From the NCBI RefSeq assembly GCF_000338295.1, contig NZ_ANMO01000212.1, positions 1 to 58,352 on the forward strand: a stretch of DNA of 58,352 nt. The letters are read 5' to 3'. This stretch comes from Rhodopirellula europaea 6C (lineage in GTDB: Bacteria > Planctomycetota > Planctomycetia > Pirellulales > Pirellulaceae). Both the position numbers and the translations under genes were made by a program. The notes beneath the pieces are model-generated. The model was not told where the DNA came from. It ran no database searches and saw only the letters and a program-made list of their open reading frames with translations. Positions within the stretch are counted from its first letter, which is position 1. The number at the start of each line of letters is the position of its first letter. Below, in pieces: positions 9,304 to 32,606 of the stretch.

Positions 9304-9374
9304 AGTGGTGGGTTTCCACCCCCTAGTTCTTTGAACTGCTGAGATCGGTTCCCAGGCGAACCGATGCATGCTCC

Positions 9375-11693
9375 ATGCCAGATGACCCGCAAAGTGCCGA
9401 CACGCCTCATTCGATTGGCAAGTCGTCGATTGATCGGTATGCGGGTGATGGCTTGGCGAACCGGGTGAGACATCTGAAGACGACTGGAAACGAAAGGTCG
9501 TTCTCCGTCGTCGATTCAGATGACGTGCCTGGCGTACTTTCCGACACCGGTTTTCGGCCATCGATGCCACTGGTTCCGTGGTTCACACGGCGGCGTGTCG
9601 CGACCGGGATCTCCGTCCTGGTGGTTTTGATAACCGCGTGTATGGCCGGGGCCATCTTGGCATCAGCGATACAACGCGCGACCGAAAACTTGGTCGCTCA
9701 TTCGTTGCAGTCTGTTTTGGCGGCCAACGTGCATTCGTTGGAAATGATGTTTTCTGATTTGCAAGGCGAATCGGAACGTTACTCACGGGACGAACGCGTC
9801 CGCCAACTTAGTTTGCAATTGTTGCGTGGTGACGACGAGCTGACCCCGTATGAAGGTGAGTCGATTCGACACGAGCTGCGTGTGATAATCCCAGAGTTGA
9901 TCGGGACCGTTCCGTGGCTGGTGATGAGTCGCGACGGAGTCGTTTTGGCCAGCAGTCGCGAATCGATCATCGGGTTGAAAGTCGAGTTTTCGAAACTCAA
10001 TCACGAGCGATTGATCGGCGGAAAGTCGACCCTGGCGATGCCACAGCGTTTGGGGGAAACTGAAAGTCAGACCGTGGTCATGGTGTCGATGTCACCCTTG
10101 ATGGACCGCAATCAGTGCTTCGGGGCGTTTGGTTGGGTGATGGAAGCCGACGACCGATTCAGTGATTTGTTGAAGATCACGCAGTCGGGGGAAACAGATG
10201 AGTCGTACGCGATTGATGGTCGCGGGCGAATGCTTTCAACCAGTCGGTTTGAAGTTCAATTGGCCGAGAAAGGGTTTCCCGAGTACAGCGTGTTGAATTA
10301 TCAGATGCGTGATCCCGGGGCTGATGTTCTGGCCAGCGATCAGCTCACGATTCCAATGCAGCAATTGCCCCTGACTCGAATGGCCGATCAGGCGACTCGC
10401 CGTGCCGACGGGATGGAGTTGGAAGGGTACCGCAACTATCGCGGCGCAATGGTTGTGGGCGCGTGGAAATGGTTGCCGGAATTCGACATGGCGGTCGCGA
10501 CCGAAATCGATGTGGCGGAAGCGTATCAACCAGCGACGATTCTTCGGCGAGTTCTCATTGCAACTCTTGCCGGTGTGGTGACGTTATCCGGAATCGCGTT
10601 GAGTTTGATCGCGTATTCACGGCACCGAGCGATTCGCAAACCTCCAATGGCAGCAGAAGAAGAAGGCGATGGTCGCCGAATCGGGCAATACCGAATTTTG
10701 GAATTGTTGGGTGTTGGTGGGATGGGATCGGTATATCGAGGCCAGCACGAATACTTACGCCGCGATGTCGCGATCAAGGTGCTGGAAGGTGAGCGATTGT
10801 CGACTCGATCGGTGGCGCGGTTTCATCGCGAAGTTCAGTTGACGTCGACGTTGAGACATCCAAATACGATCGCGATTTATGACTTTGGTCAGTGCAGTGC
10901 GGAAACCGGCGAATCTCAGATCGGAAGTTCGCGAATCGGCGAGGAAGTGGATCCTGCCGAAACGTTCTACTACGTGATGGAATACATCGACGGCATCTCG
11001 CTGCAACAATTGATTGATTACTACGGGCCTCAAACGCCCGAGCGAACAGTGCATTTCTTGCTGCAGATCTGCGGGTCGATCTCGGAAGCCCACAACGCCG
11101 GTTTGATTCATCGAGACATCAAGCCGGCGAACATTCTAGTGAGCGCACACGGTGGTCTTTGGGATCACATCAAGGTGTTGGATTTTGGATTGGTCAAAGA
11201 CATCGGCGGTGATTCGAATTTAACGCTTCAAGAAGGCGTGACGCGTGCCGACTCGATGACGGGCACGCCGCTTTACATGGCACCCGAAACCATTCGTGAT
11301 CCCGCCGCCGCTTCACCTCGTGCGGACATCTATTCGATCGGGTCAGTTGGCTACGCGTTGCTGACCGGGCGTCCGATCTTCGAAGGTGACTCGGTGATCG
11401 ACCTGTGTTTGAAACAGCTCGAGCAAAACCCACCTCGTCCTGAAGATCGCTTGCAACGTCGATTGCCGACTGCATTACAGGATATCTTGATGCGTTGCTT
11501 GGATCGTTCCGCATCGAAGCGATTTCAAACGGTTGCAGAGTGCACCGCGGCACTGGAGTCACTGCCGGAAGCCGGGCGATGGACGCAAGCCAGATCGGTC
11601 GAATGGTGGGCGAACGAATTCGAACAGGCTGCTCGAACGCAGCCTGGCCAGACCAAGAACCCAACCGTTGACGACACCGCGTTGACGCGATGA
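9375..11693 (+). CDS. Membrane Ser/Thr protein kinase with extracytoplasmic Cache-like sensor
   Basis: A 772-residue protein. Residues 1-75 are cytoplasmic and low-complexity; TM1 is at about 76-98 (GISVLVVLITACMAGAILAS); then about 295 extracytoplasmic residues resembling a double Cache sensor (VPWLVMSRDGVVLASS, later YRGAMVVGAWKWLPEFDMAV); TM2 is at about 394-413. The kinase domain spans about 437-715 with glycine loop LGVGGMGSVYRG, lysine in VAIKVLE, HRDIKPANI, DFGLVKD and MAPETI, all intact. It should phosphorylate cytoplasmic proteins in response to an external small ligand. Cache domains are usual in chemoreceptors and histidine kinases; pairing with a Hanks-type kinase is less common. 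It starts 71 bases after acs on the same strand. Confidence 0.93.
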   Translation: MPDDPQSADTPHSIGKSSIDRYAGDGLANRVRHLKTTGNERSFSVVDSDDVPGVLSDTGFRPSMPLVPWFTRRRVATGISVLVVLITACMAGAILASAIQRATENLVAHSLQSVLAANVHSLEMMFSDLQGESERYSRDERVRQLSLQLLRGDDELTPYEGESIRHELRVIIPELIGTVPWLVMSRDGVVLASSRESIIGLKVEFSKLNHERLIGGKSTLAMPQRLGETESQTVVMVSMSPLMDRNQCFGAFGWVMEADDRFSDLLKITQSGETDESYAIDGRGRMLSTSRFEVQLAEKGFPEYSVLNYQMRDPGADVLASDQLTIPMQQLPLTRMADQATRRADGMELEGYRNYRGAMVVGAWKWLPEFDMAVATEIDVAEAYQPATILRRVLIATLAGVVTLSGIALSLIAYSRHRAIRKPPMAAEEEGDGRRIGQYRILELLGVGGMGSVYRGQHEYLRRDVAIKVLEGERLSTRSVARFHREVQLTSTLRHPNTIAIYDFGQCSAETGESQIGSSRIGEEVDPAETFYYVMEYIDGISLQQLIDYYGPQTPERTVHFLLQICGSISEAHNAGLIHRDIKPANILVSAHGGLWDHIKVLDFGLVKDIGGDSNLTLQEGVTRADSMTGTPLYMAPETIRDPAAASPRADIYSIGSVGYALLTGRPIFEGDSVIDLCLKQLEQNPPRPEDRLQRRLPTALQDILMRCLDRSASKRFQTVAECTAALESLPEAGRWTQARSVEWWANEFEQAARTQPGQTKNPTVDDTALTR

Positions 11694-11762
11694 TCGGTTG
11701 GTGGCGAAGACGATGCGTCAGCGTTCGCTGCCAAAGCGTTTGTTGCCGCTTTGGAATCACGC

Positions 11763-11787
11763 CGACGGACTTGGAAGTCCATCGTAC
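11763..11787. repeat. Dispersed palindrome GGACTTGGAAGTCC, copy 2
   Basis: Identical over 25 bases to 4687-4711. It lies in the 131-base gap between the ends of the convergent kinase and methyltransferase-like genes, the same kind of site as copy 1 (between convergent gene ends). Confidence 0.8.
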
Positions 11788-11824
11788 GGGGAACAAGTGC
11801 TTCAATCGCCTGGGCTGGGCCCAA

Positions 11825-12550
11825 TTAGGCGGCTCGGCGAGTGGCGCGAAGCGTTGTCGAGTTCGACGCCGTGGATTGCCATTTGCCGTTGGTTTGACGC
11901 AGGATCATCGTGTCGGCATACGAGACCTTGCTCAGCACCGTGTCGAGTTCCGCCAACGTCTCGGCATCGAGCGATGGATCGAGAATGATCGCGTCCATCA
12001 TGCCCAGGCGGTGCAGCACCGTCACGACTCCTCGAGCCGCGTTTTCGGGAACGATGGAGGGACGAATCGCGAGTCCCGCCAATTGGCCGTGGAAGTCACG
12101 CAGTTTGACTGTGCCGCCAACCATTTCGAATTGATCGATCACGGCATACTTGAGTGCCGGGTTGGTCTCGGCCAACGCATGCACGACAGCCGGAGTTCGC
12201 GAACCGTCGCCGACGCCGATTTCCAAGATGCTGGACGGTTGAAGCTTGGTCAGTGTTTTGACCAACGCGTCGTGCTCGCCTCGCGACAGCATCGACAAGA
12301 CGCCGCGTGCTGCTACGGCCGGTTTGGATTTCGCAACGGATGTCGGTGTCGGGACGCTCGCCTGCGGTGCAGCGACCGGTTTGGAAGCAGCCATCGTCGT
12401 CTTCTCGGATGGCTTGCTGGCCGTTTTCTTGCGAGCAGCCGGCTCGGGTTGGGTAGTACCCGGCGACGTGGTCGCAGGGGCAGCCTCGAGAGTCACCTTT
12501 GGTTGAGGAGTGACTCCACGCAGCGAATTCCACAGCTTCTTCAAAGGCAT
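11825..12550 (-). CDS. Class I SAM-dependent methyltransferase-like protein with Pro/Ala/Lys-rich N-terminus
   Basis: 241 residues. Residues 1-82 are a low-complexity Ala/Pro/Lys/Thr linker. The folded part has ILEIGVGDGSRTPAVVHAL at about 108-126, a good SAM-binding motif I, then YAVIDQFEMV (motif II position) and MDAIILDPSL. No specific catalytic motif is visible and the domain is short (about 155 residues), so it may bind SAM or a nucleotide without being an active methyltransferase. The long charged leader is unusual for the family. The opposite strand carries a 359-codon open frame (11690-12769) that looks like a shadow. Confidence 0.8.
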   Translation of the reverse strand: MPLKKLWNSLRGVTPQPKVTLEAAPATTSPGTTQPEPAARKKTASKPSEKTTMAASKPVAAPQASVPTPTSVAKSKPAVAARGVLSMLSRGEHDALVKTLTKLQPSSILEIGVGDGSRTPAVVHALAETNPALKYAVIDQFEMVGGTVKLRDFHGQLAGLAIRPSIVPENAARGVVTVLHRLGMMDAIILDPSLDAETLAELDTVLSKVSYADTMILRQTNGKWQSTASNSTTLRATRRAA

Positions 12551-19693: not shown

Positions 19694-20333
19694 ACCGAAT
19701 GACCGGCTAACCCGGGTGATCGTCGCCGCTGGAAGTTTCCTTGTGTTGATAGTGATCGGAAAACCACTGGTCGATGAATACAGCGAGCTACGTGCGGGCC
19801 ATCGCGAATTGTCGAAGCTTGAAGAAGAGTTTGACATGCTGCAATCCCGCGACGTGCGGTTGCAGCGAATCGAGACGACGTTGCAAGAAGAACGAATGCA
19901 ATTGCTGGAACGTTCGACCACGCCGGACAAAATCCAGAAGGTACGTGACACGGTGATTGGCATTGTTCGGCAAAGCAACGCCACCTTGCGAAGTTTGGAA
20001 ATAGAAGACGGGCAACGTCGACGTTGGGCATTTCAGAACGATGACCCGCACAGTCGACGGTTGCCCGAGATGGACGAAGAGTCTGACTTCGAGTTGCATT
20101 CGCACTCGTTGACATTGGTCGCCGACGGGACGTTGGATGCGATCATGGAAGTGATGGAGAAGATCAAGAACCAGCAATGGTTGATGACGGTTGAGACTTT
20201 GGGATTGGAGCCCGCTGGATCAAGCGAAAAATGGATTGGATTGGAATTGCGAATCACGCTGTATGGACTGCAGCGTTCGGTTCGTGAGGATGATGATCTG
20301 GTCGCTGCGATTGAATCGACGCGACTGAAGTGA
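19686..20333 (+). CDS. PilO/GspM-like pilus assembly protein
   Basis: The ATG at 19686 lies eight bases before the end of the previous gene and gives MNKPNDRLTRVIVAAGSFLV. The 215-residue protein has one N-terminal transmembrane helix at about 10-26, a coiled coil from 30 to about 90 (ELSKLEEEFDMLQSR), and a C-terminal ferredoxin-like domain (ELHSHSLTLVADGTLDAIME). This is the PilO/GspM layout. It should pair with the PilN part of the fusion in the inner membrane. Sequence identity to known PilO appears low; the assignment rests on architecture and position. Confidence 0.85.
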   Translation: MNKPNDRLTRVIVAAGSFLVLIVIGKPLVDEYSELRAGHRELSKLEEEFDMLQSRDVRLQRIETTLQEERMQLLERSTTPDKIQKVRDTVIGIVRQSNATLRSLEIEDGQRRRWAFQNDDPHSRRLPEMDEESDFELHSHSLTLVADGTLDAIMEVMEKIKNQQWLMTVETLGLEPAGSSEKWIGLELRITLYGLQRSVREDDDLVAAIESTRLK

Positions 20334-20380
20334 TCCGACGTCAAGTCGTGCACTTACTTTTCACCAACAGGGATCAACGC

Positions 20381-22864
20381 ATGGCCAAGGAAGGCTCCGC
20401 GTCACAAGCTACATACGTGATGATGACTCCGAGCAATCCGCTCGCGAGTCAGGTGACGTCGCGTCGTTCGCAAGCTCGGCGTGTGCTCGCTGCAATGGTT
20501 CGATCCGTTTCAATTGGTGTGGGATTGTCGTTGGCAACGTTCGCGACAACCTGGAGCGGTGCCGCCGCGGTCGCTGCCGATGCGAACGCGGCACCGAGCA
20601 GTTCTCAGAGTATCGCGGTTGATGCGAACCGAGGTACTCCACAGTCCGGCGAATTGGAAACAGAGGCTGTCTCGGGAGCATCGTTGGCGGCGGGAACCGA
20701 GTCGCACGTCCAATTGGACGGCCCTTCACTTTCTATCGACGAAGTGCTTTCAAAACGGGGAAGCATCACGTTCCGAAAGACATCGCTGCAGGAGGTTGTG
20801 TTTTTGCTGTCGGATCTGTGGAACATCAACATCGTCGCGGGTGAAAAGATCACCGGGGACGTTTCCGGTGTTTTCAAAGACGCTCCTCTGCGAGACGTTT
20901 TGTCTGCGATTCTGACTTCTTCTGGTTACGGCTACATTGCCGCGGGAAACAGTTTGGTTGTGTTGCCGCTGGATGAAGTTGGAACGGGAAGCCCAGATTT
21001 CGAATCGCGAACGCTGCAGTTCCGAGCCGTTGATGAAGCGGAGATGAGTTCGACAATCGCGGCGGCTCAGCTGTTGTTGTCTGATCGCGGACGAATTCAA
21101 CCGATCGGACGCGACGCGATTTTGGTGGTCGACTACAAAGAGAATATCGATCGCGTTCAGCAAATTTTGTTTGCAATGCGGCCAGAAGGCACCGTTCAAA
21201 GCAGCAACAATCTGGCAGACTCCGCGTCGCCCGGGCTTCAACGTCCAGCGGCACCGAACGTCTATGATGCGATGGCAACTGAGGTCATCTACCTAACGCC
21301 TCAATTTACCGAAGCCTCGGAAATGCGAGAGTCGCTTCAAGGTGCGCTGGGAGAAGACACAATTGTGTCCGTTTACGAAGCTGAAAATCGCATCCTGATC
21401 AAAGGCAACCGGGCTCAGTTGGAGTTGGCCACGGAGGCGTTCAAACAGCTCGACGTTCCTCGGGCTCAGGTACGTATCACGGCGTTGATTTATGACGTCA
21501 GCTTGGAAGAGCTCGAAGAGTTGGGCGTGAATTGGGGCCGTGGGTTCCGTCTGGACACGACCGACGAATCGGCGCTTGCTGATTTGGCGGGAAATGTAGA
21601 AAAAGCGGTAACCTTTGGAACGCTCGGATCGGGCGGCGCAAGTTCGTTTGGCATTCGCACTTTAACGAACACGTTTGACACCAGCGTTTTGCTTCGTGCC
21701 TTGGATAGCAGTGATGAGGCAAAGTTGTTGGCTGACCCATCGATCACCGCAATCGATCGCCGCGAAGCTTCGATCAAAATCGTCCAACAAATTCCAATCG
21801 TCGCCGCGTCACCGGCCGAAGGCAGCAACGTCGTTTTCGCTCAGGTCGAATTCAAAGATGCCGGGATCATTCTGAAGGTGACGCCGCGGATCAGCAACGA
21901 CAACACAATCGAATTGCAGGTCCAACCCGAGTACAGCGTCAAAGTTGGCGAAATCGAAAACAATCCGGTGATTGATAGCCGAACGGCCGAGACCACTGTT
22001 CGTGTCGCGAACGGCCACATGTTCACGCTAGGTGGTTTGCGTCAGAAACGGATTATTGAGGGCACCAGCGGAGTGCCTTATCTGCGAGATTTGAAATACG
22101 TGGGGAAGTTGTTTCGAAGCCACTCAACCGAAGTCCGTGAAAGCGAACTGATTGTGTTTCTGAAACCCGAGATCATCTCGCCTTATGACCATGGCAACGA
22201 ACGTTCGCGGCAGGCGATGTGCGTCGCAAACCGGCAACTCGACGCGATTCCCTACGCGTCAGTTTGTCCGCAAACACCACATTGCTACGACAAGAATTGT
22301 CCCAATCACCATCCACGACCTCGGATCAACGGCGGCACCGATGAACTGCGTATGTTGGGGGGCGAAGGCATCGCACCGATGGAGTTTTCGTTTCCTGGTT
22401 TGGTGAACCCCGCGCCGGTTGTCCCCGGCCGAGTGACGCCTTCGCATGAATCCGAAACTGTGATTTCGGATTCGATCAGGTTTGATACAGAGCCCGTGAT
22501 GCTGGGGCCGCCAACCCCTGCTCTACGTGGCTCAACTGACGCGTTGCCAACTCCGATGCTGAATCATAGTTCTCGTGCAACGGACGAAAGTCCGTCCAGT
22601 CCAATCCAGTCCGTTGCGATCGTTGGTCCGTCCGACCTTCGAAATCAAAGGACTCCGCAGATCCGAGCCCGCATGCGAAACGAGTCCGTTTCGGCGGTGG
22701 CGGCATCGTCTAGAATGATGCCGGCCAAGGTTGAGACGTTTCGGTCGCTGATCAATGAACCGTTGCGGGCCGATGTGCCATTTGGTGCTGTCTCGTCCCA
22801 ACAGGATGCGGAAGAATTTGCAGGCTATCCGCCAGTCCATGTTCGTGAGATGGAGCAGCGATAA
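20381..22864 (+). CDS. Secretin (PilQ/GspD family)
   Basis: The ATG at 20381 has AGGGA upstream and gives an 827-residue protein; a GTG at 20330 that overlaps the previous stop is the alternative. Signal-like segment at about 35-65; STN/N0-like domain ([20 protein letters not shown]); N1-type domain ([20 protein letters not shown]); secretin channel domain with [32 protein letters not shown] and [12 protein letters not shown], closing near [13 protein letters not shown]. Unusually, about 220 residues follow the channel: a Cys/His-bearing patch ([20 protein letters not shown]) and a Pro/Ser-rich tail. It forms the outer-membrane pore of the pilus or secretion machine. Confidence 0.93.
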
Positions 22865-23409
22865 TGTTCGAGCGACATTTGATGGGACGATTGCAAAACC
22901 ACGGCGAGAAAACTGTGTCGAAGGGTAACAGCACATCAACAACGGCTCGGGTGAAATGGTCTGCCGTATTTGCGTTGATGTTCGTGAAGGTGGTGGTCCT
23001 ACCGGGGTGTGGCGTGGATTCCGAGTCGATTGAGACCATTCGCCGTGTCGCGATGCAGGACCGGGAGACTCAGTCGGACCTAAAGATTGGTATGGGTGAA
23101 GTTGGGGCGATGGCGGTGAGTTCTCCAAGAGTCTTTGAACCACCGTTCCCAGATCGCAAAGATCCTTTTCACATTGACCAAGCGGCCCCGTCGACAATGA
23201 CGCGTCCGACGAAAGCGTCCGAGTACTTGGTGCTTGGATTTGCGGACGTCGGAAAGACACGGGCAATCATTCGTTTCGGCGACGAGACGCAATTTGTTTC
23301 CAAGGGCGACACGATTGGCGACGCCGAAGTGCTGGATGTCATTCCGCCCCGCGTTCGTTTGAGAAACGGCAGTTTCATTTGGGAAGCCAGCATGTTCCAG
23401 ACTCCCTGA
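22864..23409 (+). CDS. PilP/GspC-like lipoprotein
   Basis: 181 residues; the ATG shares a base with the secretin stop (TAATG). A hydrophobic stretch ends in a lipobox, [11 protein letters not shown], but sits after about 30 polar residues, so a GTG at 22915 may be the true start. The C-terminal 60 residues ([20 protein letters not shown], then [20 protein letters not shown] and [12 protein letters not shown]) form the small beta-barrel homology region of PilP and GspC, which docks on the secretin N0 domain. Last gene of the pilus block; the order M/N, O, Q, P differs from the usual M, N, O, P, Q. Confidence 0.82.
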
Positions 23410-23774: not shown

Positions 23775-24362
23775 ATGGGCAGCGGGTGGATCTTTCTGAT
23801 TCAGGCATCGCCTGTTGCCGGTCAAGAACCGTCGGATGGTTTTGAATCGGCCGCGTCGGTTGCGTTTCAAGCAGATATTCTTGAGAAACCAATCGTCTCT
23901 CATGAAGGCTATTTTCAGTTGAATTGGGAAGTGACCGGAGCGTCTGGCTTCGACGGCTCGTTTCGGGTTTCGAGCGTGGTTGATTCAATCACCGAAGGTT
24001 CGTCGGATGGTCAGCAGTCACTAGGTGCATCAGCCGAGGAAGCCGAGAATGGTATCCCGGAACGAGTGGTTTACGAGGGGACACTTCCATCCGCATTCGT
24101 ATCAGGACTTCCTGACGGAACGTATCGCTATCGAGTGGAAGCGTTGGATGCGAACGGGCGTGTGATCGCAACGTCGGAAGTTCCTGCGACGGTTCAGGTT
24201 CAGCATTGGGCGGTGTGGCAGGCAACGTTGTTGCTGGCCATCGGCGCGATCGTGTTTCTGGCGGTCATCGTCGTGATCGTGCGAGGCACGTGGATGCACC
24301 GGTCCACGAGCATGGTCGCCGAGACGAATGATCAGGCACCAGCGGAAGGAAGCGAAGCATGA
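23775..24362 (+). CDS. Membrane-anchored beta-sandwich (fibronectin III-like) protein
   Basis: 195 residues from the first ATG. A short hydrophobic N-terminus (MGSGWIFLIQASPVAGQ) is followed by a beta-sandwich domain at about 30-140 with features of an Fn3 fold (YFQLNWEVTG, LPSAFVSGLPDGTYRYRVEA) and a C-terminal transmembrane helix at about 150-174 (WQATLLLAIGAIVFLAVIVV). The domain should face the periplasm. The stop overlaps the symporter start (ATGA), so the two are probably translated together, and this protein may be an accessory or substrate-capture partner of the transporter. Function unknown. Confidence 0.8.
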   Translation: MGSGWIFLIQASPVAGQEPSDGFESAASVAFQADILEKPIVSHEGYFQLNWEVTGASGFDGSFRVSSVVDSITEGSSDGQQSLGASAEEAENGIPERVVYEGTLPSAFVSGLPDGTYRYRVEALDANGRVIATSEVPATVQVQHWAVWQATLLLAIGAIVFLAVIVVIVRGTWMHRSTSMVAETNDQAPAEGSEA

Positions 24363-25807
24363 GTGGTGAGTTGTTGGCAATATCCGGGGCCATCCTCAGC
24401 CCTCAATCTGGATACGTCTTGCTGGCCATCTTTGGCATTCTGTGGATTGCGTTGGGATGGTGGTGGGGACGTCAAGCCAAATCGTATGACGGTTTTGCCG
24501 TTGCCGGCCGAAACGTTGGGCTGGCAATGGGGACCGCGACCGCCGTGGCGACTTGGATCACTTCCAACACAACCATGTTGGCCCCGCAATATGCATTGCA
24601 ATTGGGAATCTGGGGAGCACTGGCCTATTCAACGGCAAGCTTTGGATTGTTTGCATTTGCTCCGATGAGCGGTCGCATTCGGCAGTTGATGCCAAAGGGA
24701 TACACCGCCGTTGAGTTCATCCGCCGCCGCTACGGTTGGTTGGGGACGGTTCCATTCTTGATCATTTCGTTGTTCTATGCCGTGACCTGGTTGGTCTCGA
24801 TGTCGATGGCGGGCGGAAAGCTGTTGAACGTGCTGTCGGGAATTCCGTACGAGTATGGAATGACGGTGGTCGTGTTGGTCTGCGTCGCCTACACGTTGTT
24901 CGGCGGAATGTACGCGGTGATCGGGACGGACTTCATACAAAGCCTGATCATTTTGGTGGGCCTGGTCGTGGTCGCGATCGCCGTTCTGACTCAGGTTGAA
25001 ATTCAAGAGGTGCACGAAAAACTGCGAAACGAGCGACCAATGTTGCTCTCAGCGTTTTTTCCCGCCGCGCTGATGGCTTTGTTCAACAACATGCTGTTCG
25101 GGTTCGGAGAGATTTTTCATAGCAATGTTTGGTGGAGTCGCGCGTTTGCAATGCGTGAAGGGGTCGGACCAAAAGCCTATGCTTTGGGCGGTGTGCTGTG
25201 GTTGCCGGTTCCCATCGTGGCAGGGTTTCTGGGTCTCGCCGCACCGGCACTTGGCATCGGTATCAGCGAGCCGGACACGGCGGGCCCGTTGGTGGCAGCG
25301 ACATTGCTTGGGACCAGCGGCGCATTGCTGGTTTTTGTCGTTGTTTTTTGCTCTTTGGCGTCCAGCATTGATAGTCTGCTTGCTGCGACGTCGGATTTGA
25401 TTGTCAACGACATTGCCGAACCTATTCACAACCACGTGACCCATCAGCACTCAAGTGACTCGTCCAAGCGAAAATTATCTGCGATGGCCATCATTGGCCT
25501 CGGAGCGATCGCTTGGATTGCGGCGTTCCCAAACGTGGGATCATTGGCGACGGTGCTTTTCTTCGCTGGCCCGATGGTCGGCAGCTGCATTTGGCCGATT
25601 CTTTGCGGTCTGTACTTTCGCCGGGCCAGCCCCATCGCCGCGTGTGCTTCGATGGTTTTGGGGAGCATCCTCGGGTTGGTTGCCTATTTTCAAATTGGTT
25701 GGTTCACCGCATCTTTGATCGGGGCCGCCGTCTCGGGTGTCACATTTGCCGTTTGCTGCCAGATCTGGCCAGACGATTTTGAATTTGCAACTTTGGCGGA
25801 CGACTGA
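24359..25807 (+). CDS. Sodium:solute symporter (SSS family)
   Basis: 482 residues with about 13 hydrophobic segments. The N-terminus (GRQAKSYDGFAVAGRNVGLA) and the TM5-TM8 region carry SSS-type sequence (GGMYAVIGTDFIQSLIILVG, then SSIDSLLAATSDLI with the Ser-rich sodium-site segment). Family members use the sodium gradient to import sugars, amino acids, carboxylates, nucleobases or urea derivatives. The substrate cannot be read from sequence, but the downstream carbamoyl and amide enzymes point to a nitrogen-containing solute. A 39-residue membrane protein follows after four bases. Confidence 0.92.
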   Translation: MSGELLAISGAILSPQSGYVLLAIFGILWIALGWWWGRQAKSYDGFAVAGRNVGLAMGTATAVATWITSNTTMLAPQYALQLGIWGALAYSTASFGLFAFAPMSGRIRQLMPKGYTAVEFIRRRYGWLGTVPFLIISLFYAVTWLVSMSMAGGKLLNVLSGIPYEYGMTVVVLVCVAYTLFGGMYAVIGTDFIQSLIILVGLVVVAIAVLTQVEIQEVHEKLRNERPMLLSAFFPAALMALFNNMLFGFGEIFHSNVWWSRAFAMREGVGPKAYALGGVLWLPVPIVAGFLGLAAPALGIGISEPDTAGPLVAATLLGTSGALLVFVVVFCSLASSIDSLLAATSDLIVNDIAEPIHNHVTHQHSSDSSKRKLSAMAIIGLGAIAWIAAFPNVGSLATVLFFAGPMVGSCIWPILCGLYFRRASPIAACASMVLGSILGLVAYFQIGWFTASLIGAAVSGVTFAVCCQIWPDDFEFATLADD

Positions 25808-25811
25808 ATCC

Positions 25812-25931
25812 ATGTTTTCCGTTTTCTTCTTACAATTTCTTGTGATTGGCAGTCTGGTGCTTTGTGTCATCGGCGTAGCGGTGCTGATCGGATTTTTATG
25901 GATCGACTTACGAGACAAACAAATCTGGTAG
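25812..25931 (+). CDS. 39-residue single-pass membrane protein, probable symporter accessory
   Basis: MFSVFFLQFLVIGSLVLCVI is almost wholly hydrophobic and the C-terminus is charged (WIDLRDKQIW). It starts four bases after the symporter stop and ends four bases before the next ATG, a spacing that leaves little doubt about translation. SSS symporters are known to be accompanied by small accessory membrane proteins; this one is probably analogous, though I cannot assign it to a named family. Confidence 0.72.
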   Translation: MFSVFFLQFLVIGSLVLCVIGVAVLIGFLWIDLRDKQIW

Positions 25932-25935
25932 TCCA

Positions 25936-27018
25936 ATGAATTCACTTTCCAATCAACAGGTTTCGGAAGCCTTGAGTGCATCCGCAGCAAACTCCAAGGG
26001 ACAGAAGCTGTCACCGCTGTCGCTGTTGGATGCGTTCGATGGCAACATTGACCGTGACGCTTTGAAGTCGCTCGCCGGGCAGTCGATCTTGAACCCGCGG
26101 CAATTCGATCGTCGGACCGTCTTGTCGATTGCGCAGCTCGCTGCACTCCTTGAATCACGCAACGTCGAAATGGATAAACCGCTGGACGGAAAGATCGCCA
26201 TCACGGCTTTCTTCGAACCCAGCACCCGAACTCGGTTGTCGTTCGAAAGTGCGGTGCAGCGACTCGACGGAAAAGTCCTATCGGTACCCGATGGTCAAGT
26301 CACCGGGATCGCGAAGGGCGAATCGCTGGCGGACATCGGTGAGATGTTCAACACGTACGGCGACGTTGTGATCATGCGTCACCCCGAGACGGACAGCATG
26401 GACGAGATTCAAAAGAATCTGCAGCGTCCGTTGATCAATGCTGGCAATGGTTCGGGCCATCACCCAACCCAGGCATTGATCGACTGGTACGCGTTGCTGA
26501 AGTGGCGTCCCGAGTTGCACTCAGAGCAATGCCCGCCGGAGAAGCGTGTGCATCTGGGTATCATCGGTACACCCGGGTCAATGCGGGCGGTGAAAAGCTT
26601 TCTGCGTCTGTCGCTGATGTTCACCGGTGCGGTCAGCAAGATCACGTTGGTTAGCGAGATGGCGGATCCGGTTGGATTGGATTTGACTGAACCGATCGAG
26701 CAGTCACCGATTCCGATTGAGATCACCAACGACGTGCAGGAAGTGCTGCCGCAGTTGGACGTCGTCTATGTGAACTCGATCGCATTTCTTGGTGACAGCT
26801 ATCGCAATCTGGATTCTCGCTACAGTCTTGATGCGAGCAGTCCTTTCAAAGACGGCGCGGTAATCATGCACCCGCTCGCTCGCAATGCAGAGTTGAGCGA
26901 GGACCTGGATGAAACCGACCACAATCTGTACTTCGCCCAGGCGGCTGGCGCGGTATTTGTTCGGCAAGCACTCTTGGCGGCCGTTTTGGATCGAACCGAC
27001 CGAATCAGCGGCATCTAA
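25936..27018 (+). CDS. Aspartate/ornithine carbamoyltransferase-family protein (PyrB-like, altered acceptor site)
   Basis: 360 residues, about 50 more than typical PyrB because of an N-terminal extension. Carbamoyl-phosphate residues are intact: STRTR at 96-100, Lys128 in GIAKGESLAD, HPTQ at 176-179. An Arg equivalent to E. coli Arg167 is present at 217. However, the segment that carries Arg229 and Gln231 in E. coli (TRVQKER) reads VNSIAFLGD at 279-287, and HPLP is HPLA (312-315). Those residues bind aspartate, so a different acceptor is plausible. It could still be the cell's only aspartate carbamoyltransferase. It sits between a transporter and amidotransferase/ureidohydrolase genes rather than with pyrimidine genes. 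Confidence 0.88.
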   Translation: MNSLSNQQVSEALSASAANSKGQKLSPLSLLDAFDGNIDRDALKSLAGQSILNPRQFDRRTVLSIAQLAALLESRNVEMDKPLDGKIAITAFFEPSTRTRLSFESAVQRLDGKVLSVPDGQVTGIAKGESLADIGEMFNTYGDVVIMRHPETDSMDEIQKNLQRPLINAGNGSGHHPTQALIDWYALLKWRPELHSEQCPPEKRVHLGIIGTPGSMRAVKSFLRLSLMFTGAVSKITLVSEMADPVGLDLTEPIEQSPIPIEITNDVQEVLPQLDVVYVNSIAFLGDSYRNLDSRYSLDASSPFKDGAVIMHPLARNAELSEDLDETDHNLYFAQAAGAVFVRQALLAAVLDRTDRISGI

Positions 27019-27086
27019 CCGTTGCATCTAACTGCGGCGTTTGATCCTCTCTCTCAATCCATTTCTACGAAACACCAACACCATTT

Positions 27087-29006
27087 ATGTGTGGCATCAC
27101 CGGATTCTGGAATCCATCTCGTACCAACGAACGCGAATTGCGGTTTGCGCTCGATCCTATGCTCGATGTTCTCGACCATCGCGGTCCCGATGAACGCGGC
27201 AGCCGTTTCTTTCAGGAACGTGGGCTGGCGATGGGTCACACGCGTTTGTCGATCATTGGACTCGCATGTGGTCATCAACCGATCGAAACGGATGACGGTG
27301 ATTACGCGGTCACAGTCAACGGCGAACTGTACGATTACAAACGCATTCGCACCGCATTGGCTTGCGAGAAATACGAGTGCAACGGAAAGAGCGACAGTGC
27401 GATCACCCTGCCGCTGTACCTGAAACACGACCTGGCGATGGTCGATCATCTTCGCGGTGAATTCGCGGTGGTGCTGTACGACGATCGCAAGGAACGACTC
27501 ATCCTGATCCGTGACCGGTTTGGTGTGAAGCCGCTGTATTTCGCGGTCAACGACAACGGGATCGTTTGGGGATCCGAAGTCAAATCAATTTTGCAGCACC
27601 CCGATGTCGAGCCACGGTTGTGCCCCAAAGCTGCCGTTCACCAAATGATGCAAGTCATGGTGCCGGGATCGACCGCGTTCGAAGGTGTCGATGCGTTGTT
27701 GCCGGGCCACATGTTGGTGGTTCAGAAAAACGGCGATTCACTGGAGGTTCAAACCAAGCGTTGGTGGGATTTCGAGTTTCCTGAATCGCACGAAGAGAAT
27801 GCGGATCCAGAACCGTTCATTCAAGGCGTCCAAGATCGCTTGATCGATGCGGTCGCGGCACGTTTGGAAGCGGACGTTCCGGTTGGCTGCTACTTGTCTG
27901 GCGGAATCGACAGTTGTTCGATCCTCGGGCTGGCGAACACATTGCAGCAGTCGCCCGTCAAAGCGTTCACGATTGCCTTTGATAGTGACGAATATGACGA
28001 ATCAAACATTGCCAAACGGATGGCCGAACGCACCGGGGCAGAGCAGGAATTGCTGCGGCTGACCGAGAAAGAACTGTACGGCCCGGCTTTTGAACGTGCG
28101 ACTTGGCATGCCGAGCGGACGTTCTACAACACTCTCGCGGTCGCGAAGTGGCATATGAGTCGTCGTGTGCGTGCGTGCAATTACAAAGCCGTGATCACGG
28201 GCGAAGGAAGTGATGAGCTGTTTGGCGGCTATCCATTCTTCAAACGCGATTGGCTCGGTCGAGATGACGAAGGTGGTATCTTCGCCGGCGCGATTCTGGC
28301 CGAGGAAGATTTGCAACACAGTGCTTGGCAAGACCTGTGTGGCTTCACGCCGTCATGGATCCAGCCGTGGATGTTGGTGCTCAAGCGTTTCGAGCCGATC
28401 CTGTCATCATCGTTGACCGATTTGTTGCAGGAATATGATCCGGTCGGTGAAGTGGCCGGAGCAATCGATCCAGCTCAGGTTCGCGGCCGCCACCGCTTGG
28501 ACGTGTCGCAGTACACGTGGAGCAAAACAATGTTGGAAGGTCAGATCCTGACATGGGGTGGCGACCGGATGGACATGGCCAACAGCATGGAAGCCCGTCC
28601 GGCCTTCCTCGATCACCATGTTGCCGAGTACGCAACGACCATTCCACCGGACATTCGCATCCGCGATGGCGTCGAGAAATGGGTGCTTCGCGAAGCAATG
28701 GTCAACGTGTTGCCGCGTGAGTTGTATGAACGCAAGAAGTTTGCATTCATGGCCCCGCCTGCACACACGGACCCGGTCAAGCGAGCCGCCGTGCAAGAGA
28801 TGATCGATCATTGGTTGACGTCGTCACGTGTCGAATCGGTAGGGTTCTTCCAGCACGATAAGTTGATGCAGTTCATCGATGATGCTTGGAAAGAATCCGA
28901 TGGGACGATCGCTCGTCGGAACGACATTGTCATGAACCACGTGTTGCAACTGCACATGCTGCACGGTCAGTACGTCGAAGGGCTGCCCTTGCCGGCAGTG
29001 GATTGA
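27087..29006 (+). CDS. Glutamine-hydrolysing asparagine synthetase family amidotransferase (AsnB-like)
   Basis: 639 residues. Cys2 (MCGITGFWNP) is the nucleophile of the N-terminal glutaminase, with GRL-type sequence GHTRLSIIGLACGHQPIE and NGELYDYKRIR. The synthetase half has the PP-loop SGGIDS at about 270 and GEGSDELFGGYPFF. The full set of catalytic features is present, so it should activate a carboxylate as an acyl-AMP and amidate it with ammonia from glutamine. Aspartate is the default substrate, but AsnB paralogs act on other acids. It follows the carbamoyltransferase by 68 bases and precedes the ureidohydrolase by five. Confidence 0.93.
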   Translation: MCGITGFWNPSRTNERELRFALDPMLDVLDHRGPDERGSRFFQERGLAMGHTRLSIIGLACGHQPIETDDGDYAVTVNGELYDYKRIRTALACEKYECNGKSDSAITLPLYLKHDLAMVDHLRGEFAVVLYDDRKERLILIRDRFGVKPLYFAVNDNGIVWGSEVKSILQHPDVEPRLCPKAAVHQMMQVMVPGSTAFEGVDALLPGHMLVVQKNGDSLEVQTKRWWDFEFPESHEENADPEPFIQGVQDRLIDAVAARLEADVPVGCYLSGGIDSCSILGLANTLQQSPVKAFTIAFDSDEYDESNIAKRMAERTGAEQELLRLTEKELYGPAFERATWHAERTFYNTLAVAKWHMSRRVRACNYKAVITGEGSDELFGGYPFFKRDWLGRDDEGGIFAGAILAEEDLQHSAWQDLCGFTPSWIQPWMLVLKRFEPILSSSLTDLLQEYDPVGEVAGAIDPAQVRGRHRLDVSQYTWSKTMLEGQILTWGGDRMDMANSMEARPAFLDHHVAEYATTIPPDIRIRDGVEKWVLREAMVNVLPRELYERKKFAFMAPPAHTDPVKRAAVQEMIDHWLTSSRVESVGFFQHDKLMQFIDDAWKESDGTIARRNDIVMNHVLQLHMLHGQYVEGLPLPAVD

Positions 29007-29011
29007 TTGCC

Positions 29012-30250
29012 ATGCAAGTGAATCTGGAACGAATCAAGGCCGACATTCTCGAACTCTCGCAGATCGGCCGCAATTCGGAAGACCATGGCATTTACCGAAT
29101 GGCATTCACCGACGCTGATATCGCTGGCAAACGCTGGTTGATTGACCGAATTGAAGCGGCTGGTTTACCCAGCTCCATCGATGGTGCCGCCAACATTTCG
29201 GCGACCTTAGCCGGCACATCTGATCTGCCTCGCGTGTTGGTCGGATCGCATATCGACACGGTGCCTTGCGCTGGTGCCCTCGATGGAACTCTCGGGGTGG
29301 TGGCGGGGCTGGAATGCCTCCGTTGCCTAAAGGAATCCGGCGTTCAACCTGATCGGACAATCGAATTGGTTGCCTTCAGCGATGAGGAAGGCCGTTTCGG
29401 CGGGATGTTTGGCTCGCAATCAGTCTGTGGACAAATCAATCCCGAGATGATTGCGACCATGACGGACATGAACGGTGTTTCGTTGCAGGAAGAGATGTCA
29501 CGGCATGGATACGATCCCGTTGCCGCTTTGGATGCGGCGAGGGATCCTGAAAGCCTGCATTGCTATTTGGAGATGCACATCGAGCAAGGTCCCGTCCTGG
29601 ACCGTTTGCACAAATCGGTTGGTGTCGTCGACCAAATCACCGGTTTGTTCACTTGGTCGGTGCGGCTCAAGGGCGAAGCCAACCATGCGGGCACGACGCC
29701 GATGGACATGCGGCACGACGCGTTCATGGGGTTGGCCGATTTTGCTCATGAGGTTCCACGGATCTTGGAAGAGAACGGTAGCGACCGAAGTCGTGCGACC
29801 ATTGGCAAGGCTCAGATTTTGCCGGGAGCAACAAACACGGTTCCTGGTTTGGTCGAGTTTGCATTGGACGTTCGCGACACTTCGATGGACGTCTTGGAAG
29901 ATTTGGCCGATGCGTTTCGCAAAGCACTCTCAGCGATCGCGCGTCGTCGAAGTTTGATGTTCGAGTTTGAGCAGAAAAGTTTGATCAGTCCGGTCGAGTG
30001 TGGTGACCTGATCGTGAAGACGATCCAGCAACAAGCCGAAAAGTTGCAGCTTGATTACGAAATCATGCCCAGTGGGGCTGCCCATGACGCGCAAATCATG
30101 GGAAGAATGATTCCGGTCGGTATGATCTTTGTCCCCAGCAAGTCTGGGCAAAGTCACTCGCCCGCGGAATGGACCGCGTGGCAGGACATTGAGGCGGGAG
30201 CCAACGTGTTGCTCCACTCGCTCACCGAAATGTCAAGCAAACCAGATTGA
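29012..30250 (+). CDS. M20-family N-carbamoyl-amino acid/allantoate amidohydrolase (HyuC/AllC-like)
   Basis: The ATG at 29012, five bases after asnB-like, gives 412 residues, the family's normal length. Metal ligands are all in place: GSHIDTVP (His), GALDGTLGV (Asp), FSDEEGRFGG (Glu), EMHIEQGP (His) and GQSHSPAEW (His). The dimerisation lid holds NHAGTTPMDMRHDA. The family hydrolyses the carbamoyl C-N bond of N-carbamoyl-amino acids, allantoate, ureidoglycolate or beta-ureidopropionate using two metal ions. Which ureido compound is used here is unknown. Neighbours include a carbamoyltransferase and a second amidohydrolase. Confidence 0.92.
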   Translation: MQVNLERIKADILELSQIGRNSEDHGIYRMAFTDADIAGKRWLIDRIEAAGLPSSIDGAANISATLAGTSDLPRVLVGSHIDTVPCAGALDGTLGVVAGLECLRCLKESGVQPDRTIELVAFSDEEGRFGGMFGSQSVCGQINPEMIATMTDMNGVSLQEEMSRHGYDPVAALDAARDPESLHCYLEMHIEQGPVLDRLHKSVGVVDQITGLFTWSVRLKGEANHAGTTPMDMRHDAFMGLADFAHEVPRILEENGSDRSRATIGKAQILPGATNTVPGLVEFALDVRDTSMDVLEDLADAFRKALSAIARRRSLMFEFEQKSLISPVECGDLIVKTIQQQAEKLQLDYEIMPSGAAHDAQIMGRMIPVGMIFVPSKSGQSHSPAEWTAWQDIEAGANVLLHSLTEMSSKPD

Positions 30251-30268
30251 TCGCATCGAAGGCTCACC

Positions 30269-31012
30269 ATGAACGATTTTGCACCGCACGACGAACACCC
30301 GGATCCGCTTCGCGAAATTTATCACGAATCGTTTGTTGAAAATCCTGCTCACGGCGAATTTCTAGTCGGCCGGCACACCGCTTTGTTGTGCATCGATCTG
30401 CAATATCTGGACGCCGCACCAGGATGCGGTGTTTTTGCCGAAGGAAACAACCACGGCGTGTCCCCCGAAGGCCAGAAATACTACTTCGATCGACTGAACG
30501 ACACGGTGTTGCCAAACGTGCGGCGGTTGCAAGAGGCGTTTCGTCGACGCAATCTGGAAGTCATTCACACCCGGATTCAGTCGCTGACGCGAGACGGACG
30601 CGACCGAGGAAAAGGGCACAAACGGCTGAATCTGCTGGCGGCTCCAGGATCGCACGAAGCAGAGTTTTTGGCGGAGGTGGCACCGGAGCCGGATCGCGAT
30701 GAAATCGTCATCAACAAAACGGCCAGCGGAGTTTTCAGTTCGACCAACTTGCACTACGTCCTGAAAAACATGGGCATTGAAGCCCTGTTCGTCGTCGGCG
30801 TCTACACCAATGAATGCGTCGAAACCACCGTTCGCGACGCCTGCGATTTGGGGTATTTGGTCACCGTGGTCGAGGACTGCTGTGCGACGGTGACGCCGGA
30901 GCTACACAACGCGACGCTGGCAACGCTTCGCGACCGATACGCGAGAGTCATGACAATCGGCGAGGTCATCCAAACGGTCGTGAATCTGATTCCTGCGAAA
31001 GCCGAAGGTTGA
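30269..31012 (+). CDS. Isochorismatase-like cysteine amidohydrolase (N-carbamoylsarcosine amidase/RutB-like)
   Basis: 247 residues with the family's catalytic triad: Asp43 (LLCIDLQYLD), Lys150 (VINKTASGVF) and Cys183 (YTNECVETTVRDA). Members with Cys hydrolyse amides or ureido groups (N-carbamoylsarcosine, ureidoacrylate, nicotinamide, biuret). The 35-residue N-terminal extension (HPDPLREIYHESF) is typical of the larger amidase subgroup. It follows the M20 hydrolase by 18 bases and probably closes the operon, since a 181-base gap follows. Confidence 0.92.
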   Translation: MNDFAPHDEHPDPLREIYHESFVENPAHGEFLVGRHTALLCIDLQYLDAAPGCGVFAEGNNHGVSPEGQKYYFDRLNDTVLPNVRRLQEAFRRRNLEVIHTRIQSLTRDGRDRGKGHKRLNLLAAPGSHEAEFLAEVAPEPDRDEIVINKTASGVFSSTNLHYVLKNMGIEALFVVGVYTNECVETTVRDACDLGYLVTVVEDCCATVTPELHNATLATLRDRYARVMTIGEVIQTVVNLIPAKAEG

Positions 31013-31193: not shown

Positions 31194-32606
31194 TTGAATT
31201 ACAAACGCGGGTTAGCTTTCATCGTGATCGTCGCGGTCGTCGGCTGGTTCGGCTACAGCATGACGCAGACAAAACGCGATGATGAGCTGTTTCGTGATTT
31301 GGTGAAGAGTCAGCAACAGCGAAAGAGCAGCGAAGCTGAATCGGCGGCTCTTTTGGAATCGACCAAAGTTTCCGCGCCGCCCAATGACATGGTGGTGAAT
31401 CTGATTCCCGGGAACGTCTGGTTCGTCGGGAAATACGAGGATGGCGGCGGCGTCGAAATTCCTTTTCGTCCCGGTGAGTCTCCGCAAAAAACGGACGACG
31501 ACACTCCTCACCAGGAGAACCCTGGATTTGTCGGCCCCGAGCAGTGTCAGGAGTGTCATCGCGAAAAATATCAGTCGTTTCTCGCGACGGGGCACTACAA
31601 GACGTGTCGCCCGGTCAATGAATCAACGATCGACGGAATCTTTGAGTCCGGTGGCAATCGTTTTCAAACGTCCGATCCCAACGTGTCGTTCGAGATGATT
31701 CGGCGGGGGGATGAGTTTCTGCAACGAGCCCATTTCTTTGATTGGAGCTTTGAGATTCCGATGGAGATCATCATGGGATCGTCCAAAATGGCTCAGACGT
31801 ATCTGTATTGGCACAGGGATGGGCTCTATCAGCACAATGTGACGCACATCACCGATGGTGATCAATGGATCAACAGCCCCGGCTACATCGACGGGGATGC
31901 TGCCTACGCCCGGCCCATTCCGCAGCGTTGCCTGGATTGCCACATGACGTACTTTGATTTTCGCGGCAACACCAATCGCTACACGCCAGGTTCTTTGATC
32001 ATGGGTGTGACCTGTGAACGGTGTCATGGGCCGGCGAAGGACCATGTGAATTTTCATCGCGAAAATCGGGACGCTCGAGAAGCCGTTGGCATCACCAATC
32101 CGGCCGACTTAGAGCGTCAGCTTCAAATGGACATTTGTGGTCAGTGTCACGGAGGTTCACGGGAACTCAAGGGCGATGCACTCAGTTTCCGACCGGGGGA
32201 TCCTTTGGAGGATCATTACTATCCGCCCGATGAAGAAGCGGATGCGAAGAACAGCGTGCACACCAGCAATCAGCTGAATCGATTGTCTCAAAGCGAATGC
32301 TTCCTGCAGTCGCAGATGACTTGCATTGATTGCCACGACCCGCATCATAACGAGCGGGGCAACGAGCTTTTGTTTTCCAGCCGGTGCATGAAGTGCCACG
32401 AGAACGAAAGCGACTGCGGCTACTTTCCTCACGAAGGTGTGAACTTTGCCGAGAACTGTGTCGACTGCCACATGCCACGTCGATCGACAGAAGAGCTGCG
32501 GTTGGAAAGTGTCAAAGGTGACGTCTTTCCTCCACTTCGCGACCACTACATTCGCGTTGATGAAACGGCGACGGAGCGATTCCTGTTGGGCTTGGATGAA
32601 GGTTAG
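31194..32606 (+). CDS. Membrane-anchored multihaem cytochrome c (seven CxxCH)
   Basis: The frame opens with TTG at 31194 (AGGA upstream); a nearby ATG is out of frame. 470 residues with an N-terminal anchor (GLAFIVIVAVVGWFGYSM) and seven CxxCH haem sites: CQECH, CLDCH, CERCH, CGQCH, CIDCH, CMKCH and CVDCH. The first and neighbouring sequence (GPEQCQECHREKYQSFLATG) resembles cytochrome c554/NrfA-like proteins. It probably transfers electrons in the periplasm. Extra His residues (CHDPHHNE, GYFPHEGVNFAENC) could be distal ligands. No partner oxidoreductase is adjacent. Confidence 0.9.
   Translation: MNYKRGLAFIVIVAVVGWFGYSMTQTKRDDELFRDLVKSQQQRKSSEAESAALLESTKVSAPPNDMVVNLIPGNVWFVGKYEDGGGVEIPFRPGESPQKTDDDTPHQENPGFVGPEQCQECHREKYQSFLATGHYKTCRPVNESTIDGIFESGGNRFQTSDPNVSFEMIRRGDEFLQRAHFFDWSFEIPMEIIMGSSKMAQTYLYWHRDGLYQHNVTHITDGDQWINSPGYIDGDAAYARPIPQRCLDCHMTYFDFRGNTNRYTPGSLIMGVTCERCHGPAKDHVNFHRENRDAREAVGITNPADLERQLQMDICGQCHGGSRELKGDALSFRPGDPLEDHYYPPDEEADAKNSVHTSNQLNRLSQSECFLQSQMTCIDCHDPHHNERGNELLFSSRCMKCHENESDCGYFPHEGVNFAENCVDCHMPRRSTEELRLESVKGDVFPPLRDHYIRVDETATERFLLGLDEG

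Follow-up and report, generated by a model that had tools for sequence, protein, structure and literature searches.

We have analysed a run of seven genes on the forward strand of contig NZ_ANMO01000212.1 of Rhodopirellula europaea 6C. The window, as the whole stretch of DNA analysed is called here, comprises 58,352 nucleotides. The set joins a member of the sodium:solute symporter (SSS) family and two small membrane partners to a carbamoyltransferase (CT), an AsnB-like amidotransferase and two hydrolases (Table 1). The initial annotation had described seven co-directional genes, and the listing of open reading frames (ORFs) and their translation reproduced its coordinates, strands and gaps; from gene 1 to gene 7, the intergenic gaps are -4, 4, 4, 68, 5 and 18 bases. 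The unit is preceded by a gap of 365 bases, with the previous ORF ending at position 23409. No Pfam or NCBIfam family matched genes 1 (195 aa) and 3 (39 aa).

Table 1. The seven genes of the unit and their positions in the window
Gene	Product and predicted or proposed role	Position	Strand	Basis
1	Anchored symporter partner, 195 aa; FN3-like domain, then one C-terminal transmembrane helix	23775..24362	+	Alignment, 24 rows
2	Sodium:solute symporter, SSS family, 482 aa; predicted solute importer	24359..25807	+	PF00474
3	One-helix membrane peptide, 39 residues	25812..25931	+	Hydropathy, alignment
4	Carbamoyltransferase (CT), distinct subfamily, 360 aa; proposed glutamine carbamoyltransferase	25936..27018	+	OTCace_N, OTCace
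5	AsnB-like glutamine-dependent amidotransferase, 639 aa; proposed alpha-carboxylate amidation	27087..29006	+	GATase_7 + Asn_synthase
6	M20 N-carbamoyl-amino-acid hydrolase, 412 aa; proposed degradation step 2	29012..30250	+	M20 hydantoinase/carbamoylase
7	Isochorismatase-type cysteine amidase, 247 aa; proposed degradation step 1, C1 amide removal	30269..31012	+	Family match

Conservation of the gene block

A close CT was found in 15 of 60 near genomes, namely in 12 of the 13 of the same genus (R. europaea 6C included) and in three of other genera of the family. The initial annotation had proposed a search for the gene set across Planctomycetota; this search found the set, with a core of five genes (anchored protein, symporter, peptide, CT and AsnB-like gene) in all 14 relatives fetched, the M20 gene in 13 of these stretches and the amidase gene in 12. 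In genome G084, which belongs to another family of the same phylum, the M20 and amidase genes are divergent from the synthesis genes.

To look further afield, a collection of 84,980 species was scanned by two short peptide patterns, neither of which spans the altered acceptor residues of the CT described below. The scan gave 116 relatives, from which the best 80, ranked by likeness to the window CT, were kept; conservation within these 80 loci is therefore partly a product of selection. These loci belong to Planctomycetota, Verrucomicrobiota, Bacteroidota, Myxococcota, Calditrichota and candidate division GN15, and the five core genes form one block across them. The symporter adjoins the CT in 79 loci, the sole miss being a contig end, and the AsnB-like gene is present in 78, with both misses again due to contig ends. 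The anchored protein was recovered in 74 loci, in 55 by tblastn and in 19 as an ORF family at the same position (six of these ORFs are included in the 24-row alignment), and its six misses all lie at contig ends. Since the 80 fetched loci repeat the block to the extent that their contigs cover it, the grouping is more than chance, and the claim of a real unit made in the initial annotation holds far beyond the near relatives, in six phyla.

The identity matrices of 66 of the 80 loci gave Spearman correlations of 0.73 for CT and AsnB, 0.52 for CT and symporter and 0.54 for AsnB and symporter, values that still include species relatedness. The set is rare and patchy, being present at E <= 1e-100 in 2 of 392 Planctomycetota genomes (R. 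europaea 6C included) and, in the phylum of Pelagicoccus, in 2 of 145 genomes (centre included). Plasmid and viral searches revealed no member, the best plasmid match listed standing at 35.6% and the single viral match at 30%. One Bacteroidota locus (L092) carries a 965-aa ORF without Pfam match between the CT and the AsnB-like gene (8993-11887).

The symporter scored 71.6 bits against PF00474 (cut-off 22.8) and 108.4 against TIGR00813, under the cut-off of 184. Its anchored partner, which has no Pfam match, reads by eye from the alignment as one FN3-like domain plus a helix, and distant relatives are alignable over just the final ~75-100 residues. The 39-residue peptide, found as a single copy in the R. 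europaea genome, lies over the hydropathy threshold in 77 of 79 loci, the exceptions being L139, barely under it, and L142, where the symporter gene holds an insertion. Residues D32 and the C-terminal W39 are invariant in the 21 aligned rows, and a C-terminal Trp ends 78 of the 79 listed peptide ORFs. Both the peptide and the anchored protein belong, as conserved components, to the predicted symporter unit. Two symporter genes have an unusual structure. In Neorhodopirellula pilleata (L042, 5619-7042; the genome is shared with L066), the match falls into two pieces with a four-base overlap, a pattern resembling a frameshift, whether genuine or an assembly error. In the Polyangia locus L142, the insertion is an opposite-strand 477-aa ORF that interrupts the match (5565-6995).

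On the 5' side of the operon, the stretch 20330-23409 of the window holds a secretin-like gene (sub-cut-off matches to type II and type IV pilus secretin models) together with a gene for a 181-aa protein without family; 5 of the 14 fetched relatives have both at this place. On the 3' side lies a multihaem cytochrome gene with several CxxCH motifs (31194-32606). This gene is probably not part of the unit, since it is present in just 3 of the 14 fetched relatives that bear the set.

Active sites of the carbamoyltransferase and its partner enzymes

The window CT is one of three OTCace_N genes in its genome. It scored under every carbamoyltransferase cut-off listed in NCBIfam, including NF002032, its best model (172.6 vs 263), and TIGR00670 (172.2 vs 236.95); the scores against the ornithine, putrescine and N-acetylornithine carbamoyltransferase and YgeW models were all far below the curated cut-offs. 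Its AlphaFold model has the aspartate carbamoyltransferase fold with a mean pLDDT of 86.4, residues 285-289, beside the altered site, being poorly modelled.

We have aligned 96 subfamily sequences to E. coli PyrB, whose numbering is used here. The 95 rows besides that of the window represent 90 distinct sequences (91 or fewer in total), and for L138 and L141 the translation follows the span of the match and reads through an in-frame stop at its N-terminal edge. Residues S52, T53, R54, T55, K84, R105, H134 and Q137, which we take to be the carbamoyl-phosphate site of PyrB, are kept in 96 of 96 rows, and so is R167, presumably the contact for the alpha-carboxylate. The CT thus shares with PyrB the fold, R167 and, with a single exception, the carbamoyl-phosphate contacts checked, whereas four positions are replaced throughout: S80, a residue of the neighbouring subunit, by G in all rows; R229 by S (95 rows) or A (1 row); Q231 by A (93) or T (3); and P268 by A (95) or S (1). 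The window copy differs further by an N-terminal extension of ~40 residues. We take R229 and Q231 to be the contacts for the side-chain carboxylate of aspartate, and the second PyrB-like gene of the same genome retains both, as well as S80.

Because the carbamoyl-phosphate residues and R167 are kept and R229 and Q231 are replaced, the CT probably still binds carbamoyl phosphate and the alpha-carboxylate, its beta-carboxylate site being gone. With the two presumed holders of the side-chain carboxylate lost, the acceptor is probably an amino acid whose side chain is neutral.

The initial annotation had allowed for the CT being an ordinary PyrB. We have rejected this assignment on the basis of the sub-cut-off scores and of acceptor-site changes found in every one of the 96 sequences. 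The broader explanation, in which a duplicated PyrB and an asparagine synthase lie next to unrelated hydrolases by accident, is very improbable: it would account for the fold of the CT, for its ~30% identity to aspartate carbamoyltransferase and for the AsnB-like protein passing the model of glutamine-hydrolysing asparagine synthase, but not for the low family scores and the replaced acceptor residues, nor for the retention of the block across phyla. Another PyrB-like gene and two further full-size AsnB-like genes exist in the genome, which speaks against this explanation as well. Four distant CT-like genes of other Planctomycetota (L048, L049, L050 and L053) were left uncounted, as they retain the R-x-Q motif of aspartate carbamoyltransferases and tblastn found no further gene of the set at their loci. 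Those of L048 and L053 represent another aspartate-carbamoyltransferase-like gene type, with R-x-Q intact, in related Pirellulaceae.

In the AsnB-like protein, the nucleophile C2 and S271-S276 (SGGxDS loop) are invariant in the 32 rows chosen. The protein is 26-27% identical to the two other AsnB-like proteins of its genome and 27% identical to E. coli AsnB. It passes TIGR01536 (390.3 vs 267.1) and stays below the model of the amidotransferase for N-acetylglutaminylglutamine amide (NAGGN), TIGR03104 (263.6 vs 570.1 bits). Lasso-peptide and macrolactam cyclases appear among its NCBIfam relatives, under cut-off. Such relatives, and the occurrence of AsnB-like enzymes in natural-product clusters, would fit a small secreted natural product, an amidated ureido amino acid that is no osmolyte; this is a very weak contender, as no peptide synthetase, precursor or export family was found among the ten window proteins scanned.

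The M20 protein passes both the hydantoinase/carbamoylase model TIGR01879 (371 vs 204) and the subfamily model NF006771 (567.5 vs 399), named allantoate amidohydrolase. This name is a subfamily label and does not prove the substrate; given that the model is passed, an allantoate-like substrate would be compatible with the sequence. The equivalog models of AllC (TIGR03176, 288.4 vs 597.75) and of the N-carbamyl-glutamate hydrolase ErtE (363.2 vs 520) score below cut-off, which sets the protein apart from these members of the L-N-carbamoylase/hydantoinase group. H80, D91, E126, H189 and H382, which we take to be the metal site, are invariant in 33 chosen rows, and R288 and N275 are kept, with identical residues at the aligned positions of a solved carbamoylase. 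As these two residues presumably bind the carboxylate of the substrate, the M20 enzyme should act after the amidase. The amidase itself has an invariant D43, K150 and C183 (32 rows), presumably its catalytic triad, and lies far from the biuret hydrolase and RutB models (72 vs 370 and 58.1 vs 377.95). Pathways of allantoin, hydantoin and pyrimidine degradation were rejected, no hydantoinase, allantoinase or dihydropyrimidinase family being found among the ten window proteins scanned.

The hydrolases are the variable part of the set. A locus was counted as complete when it reached at least 5.5 kb on each side of the CT; among 43 such loci, 29 have M20 and amidase, 2 have M20 alone and 12 have neither. 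The 45 loci that bear an M20 gene show three arrangements (30, 11 and 4 loci). When seven genomes were searched for the amidase, those of Sphingobacterium and Chitinophaga gave no match at E <= 1e-10 and the remaining five did, with the Paraliomyxa gene ~15 kb from the block. At L089, a different M20 hydrolase lies 3' of the AsnB-like gene.

These counts bear on the idea, put forward in the initial annotation, that the genes serve the uptake and processing of a ureido compound. Taken alone, it leaves the synthesis genes unexplained in the 12 complete loci without a nearby hydrolase. In its fuller form, the symporter would import ureido or amide compounds for nitrogen, the hydrolases would degrade them, and CT and AsnB would recapture the carbamoyl and amide nitrogen. 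We regard such scavenging as improbable. An importer and both classes of hydrolase are indeed present and the M20 scores lie well above the two cut-offs given, but CT, AsnB and symporter persist where neither hydrolase is within reach, two of the seven genomes searched lack an amidase match, and the window proteins scanned contain none of the ureide-opening families named above.

Regulator and betaine genes near the block in relatives

The flanks of the non-Pirellulaceae loci were scanned for 93 of 97 nearest and 78 of 84 second-nearest ORFs, plus one ORF inside L092; ORFs outside the scan were dropped by hand, and the results comprise the 25 commonest families. Among these, a MarR regulator is the sole flanking family that recurs beyond close relatives. 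It is present in 21 of the 80 loci; in 17 of them it lies no more than 2.5 kb from a core gene, and in the other 4 the distance is 4-5 kb.

We have compared 15 of the 16 clustered regulators, leaving out the L122 ORF as misread. These operon-side regulators, which we liken to EctR and CosR, scored at best 75-125 bits against ectoine-side regulators, while the E. coli proteins MarR, MprA and SlyA (partial) gave no more than 48 bits; as the MarR tree left most branches unresolved, pairwise scores alone were used. The ectoine side was drawn from plasmids, where 11 of 38 MarR records were examined, a non-random choice that left out Aminobacter (5 records) and the other Sphingobium records. Three of the 11 were unannotated, and seven of the eight annotated homologues lie inside an ectABC cluster, one of these with proVWX between; the eighth, from Sphingobium, is not beside ectABC.

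A second kind of neighbour is found in five Pirellulaceae loci (L067, L069, L073, L074 and L075), where GSMT, SDMT and BCCT transporter genes lie upstream on the same strand. At L073, the scores were 494.7 for glycine/sarcosine N-methyltransferase (cut-off 350), 374.6 for sarcosine/dimethylglycine methyltransferase (below 550) and 563.3 for Pfam BCCT, and the betaine genes of the other loci were assigned from it by tblastn. Four of these five loci also have the MarR gene, L069 being cut nearby. With L083 (Phycisphaerales), where GSMT, SDMT and BCCT stand beside the block on the other strand, betaine synthesis and BCCT genes flank the block in 6 of the 80 loci. Such adjacency is unlikely by chance, since GSMT was found in 4 of 40 genomes searched and in 0 of 14 controls. 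Two Sphingobacterium loci have a BCCT transporter gene downstream, and L138 a universal-stress-like gene. In the R. europaea 6C genome, the GSMT gene lies on another contig, with a piece of the split match to this MarR regulator 271 bases away.

The regulator and betaine neighbours of the relatives point to osmoadaptation. Their osmotic character also speaks against nitrogen scavenging and against a secreted natural product. A close parallel is offered by ectoine clusters with EctR/CosR and the SSS importer EctI, which may share with some relatives the same kind of MarR regulator. They differ in having other enzymes and another product, and in that the window operon has no adjacent regulator and its symporter is accompanied by two small membrane partners. 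In the available part of a published study, ectR is named as a MarR repressor, and Planctomycetota are already reported to have an SSS importer encoded next to genes for osmolyte synthesis (PMC13342039).

A candidate operon for carbamoylglutamine amide

The set of genes and its conservation, together with the altered active sites and the neighbours in relatives, lead us to infer the reactions, the direction of transport and the solute as follows. The CT would use carbamoyl phosphate to carbamoylate the alpha-amine of an amino acid whose side chain is neutral, L-glutamine being the most likely, and the AsnB-like enzyme would amidate the alpha-carboxylate with ammonia from a second glutamine. 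The product would be a neutral molecule and, with glutamine as the acceptor, Nα-carbamoyl-L-glutamine 1-amide (CGA). The symporter, with its FN3-like partner and the 39-residue peptide, would use sodium to recover leaked or external solute. At a surplus of solute, the cysteine amidase would strip the C1 amide first, and the M20 enzyme would then strip the carbamoyl group, giving back the amino acid, ammonia and CO2.

As a whole, the seven genes are best explained as a compatible-solute operon with CGA as its most likely product, a reading to which we give a probability of roughly 0.6. Its parts differ in strength: an osmolyte operon is very likely, an N-carbamoyl amino-acid amide as the product is likely, and CGA itself is slightly favoured. 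An osmolyte fits better than pure scavenging because synthesis and uptake are kept without the amidase in some genomes. The initial annotation had suggested, besides uptake, a cycle of synthesis and degradation; the cycle with uptake stands, and what it lacked was the purpose, osmoadaptation, which emerges from the neighbours in relatives.

CGA was reportedly described in 1991. In the NAGGN pathway, the carboxylate of a glutamine compound with a blocked amine receives its amide cap from an AsnB-like amidotransferase, and a similar capping is proposed here; the two systems differ in that TIGR03104 is not reached in the window and in that a carbamoyltransferase would block the amine. The predicted chemistry, an amine carbamoylated and a carboxyl amidated, leads to CGA if the acceptor is glutamine, and CGA is a known neutral osmolyte of Ectothiorhodospira marismortui, according to the available parts of two sources (PMC1224877, PMC3857566). 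The first of these groups CGA and NAGGN as amino-acid osmolytes with both charged groups masked (PMC1224877, in part), and the second, a 2013 review, presents CGA as a solute of one organism only and as minor in E. marismortui (PMC3857566, in part). In an accessible section of a 2020 paper, CGA is ascribed to purple sulfur bacteria and betaine synthesis by GMT-DMT is predicted from the E. marismortui genome (PMC7824335). The betaine genes near the block in relatives belong to this route. E. marismortui differs from the hosts described here in being a gammaproteobacterium, in which CGA is known as a compound.

Several results weigh against CGA or against an osmotic role. The acceptor could, from the CT sequence, be an amino acid other than glutamine, and a different osmolyte, the N-carbamoyl amide of asparagine, glycine or alanine, or of glutamate amidated twice by AsnB, is an alternative that we consider unlikely. 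The loss of the second-carboxylate site would suit it, as this loss does not fix the replacement specificity, but we know of no such compound, whereas CGA is known, and for glutamate the expected distal-carboxylate contact is lost in the CT. The M20 and AsnB proteins could be annotated as ordinary enzymes, since they pass NF006771 and TIGR01536. No gammaproteobacterial locus is among the best 80 of the 116, the known CGA host being gammaproteobacterial. The set is also present in Sphingobacterium and Chitinophaga, which are, to our knowledge, not known as salt-lovers. In the window itself, neither MarR nor betaine genes stand beside the operon. The likeness to ectoine regulators is not exclusive, because the Sphingobium regulator scores up to 102 bits against the operon-side ones, and Sphingobium accounts for 11 of the 38 plasmid MarR records.

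Against CGA as a main solute, the weightiest result comes from the genus itself. All seven genes are present in genome G004, which is probably that of R. baltica SH1. The main text of a salt-shock array paper on R. baltica does not contain 'asparagine', 'carbamoyl' or 'symporter', and no R. baltica paper on these genes was found among the matches listed. Nuclear magnetic resonance of R. baltica DSM 10527 gave sucrose, glutamate, trehalose and mannosylglucosylglycerate (MGG) as the main solutes, according to the accessible part of that study (PMC3694870). CGA may be minor or absent in R. baltica.

In the literature searched, which had most subscription journals and all preprints outside its reach, no genes for CGA biosynthesis were found, and searches on carbamoyl-glutamine variants, on Planctomycetes osmolytes and on the combination of carbamoyltransferase, asparagine synthase and osmolytes gave no pathway among the matches listed. 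It is about an even call whether the operon represents the first gene set for CGA, covering synthesis, salvage and degradation in six phyla, probably via gene transfer, together with a glutamine-specific CT subfamily and a three-part, osmotically controlled sodium symporter. Compatible solutes enable bacterial life in salt, and some are sold as protectants. If the set makes CGA, this solute would extend to members of Planctomycetota, Verrucomicrobiota, Bacteroidota and Myxococcota, and an orphan osmolyte would gain a pathway that is testable with two enzymes. Even with another amide as the product, the operon would bring a CT subfamily whose acceptor residues are altered, as well as a conserved microprotein that belongs to an SSS transporter.

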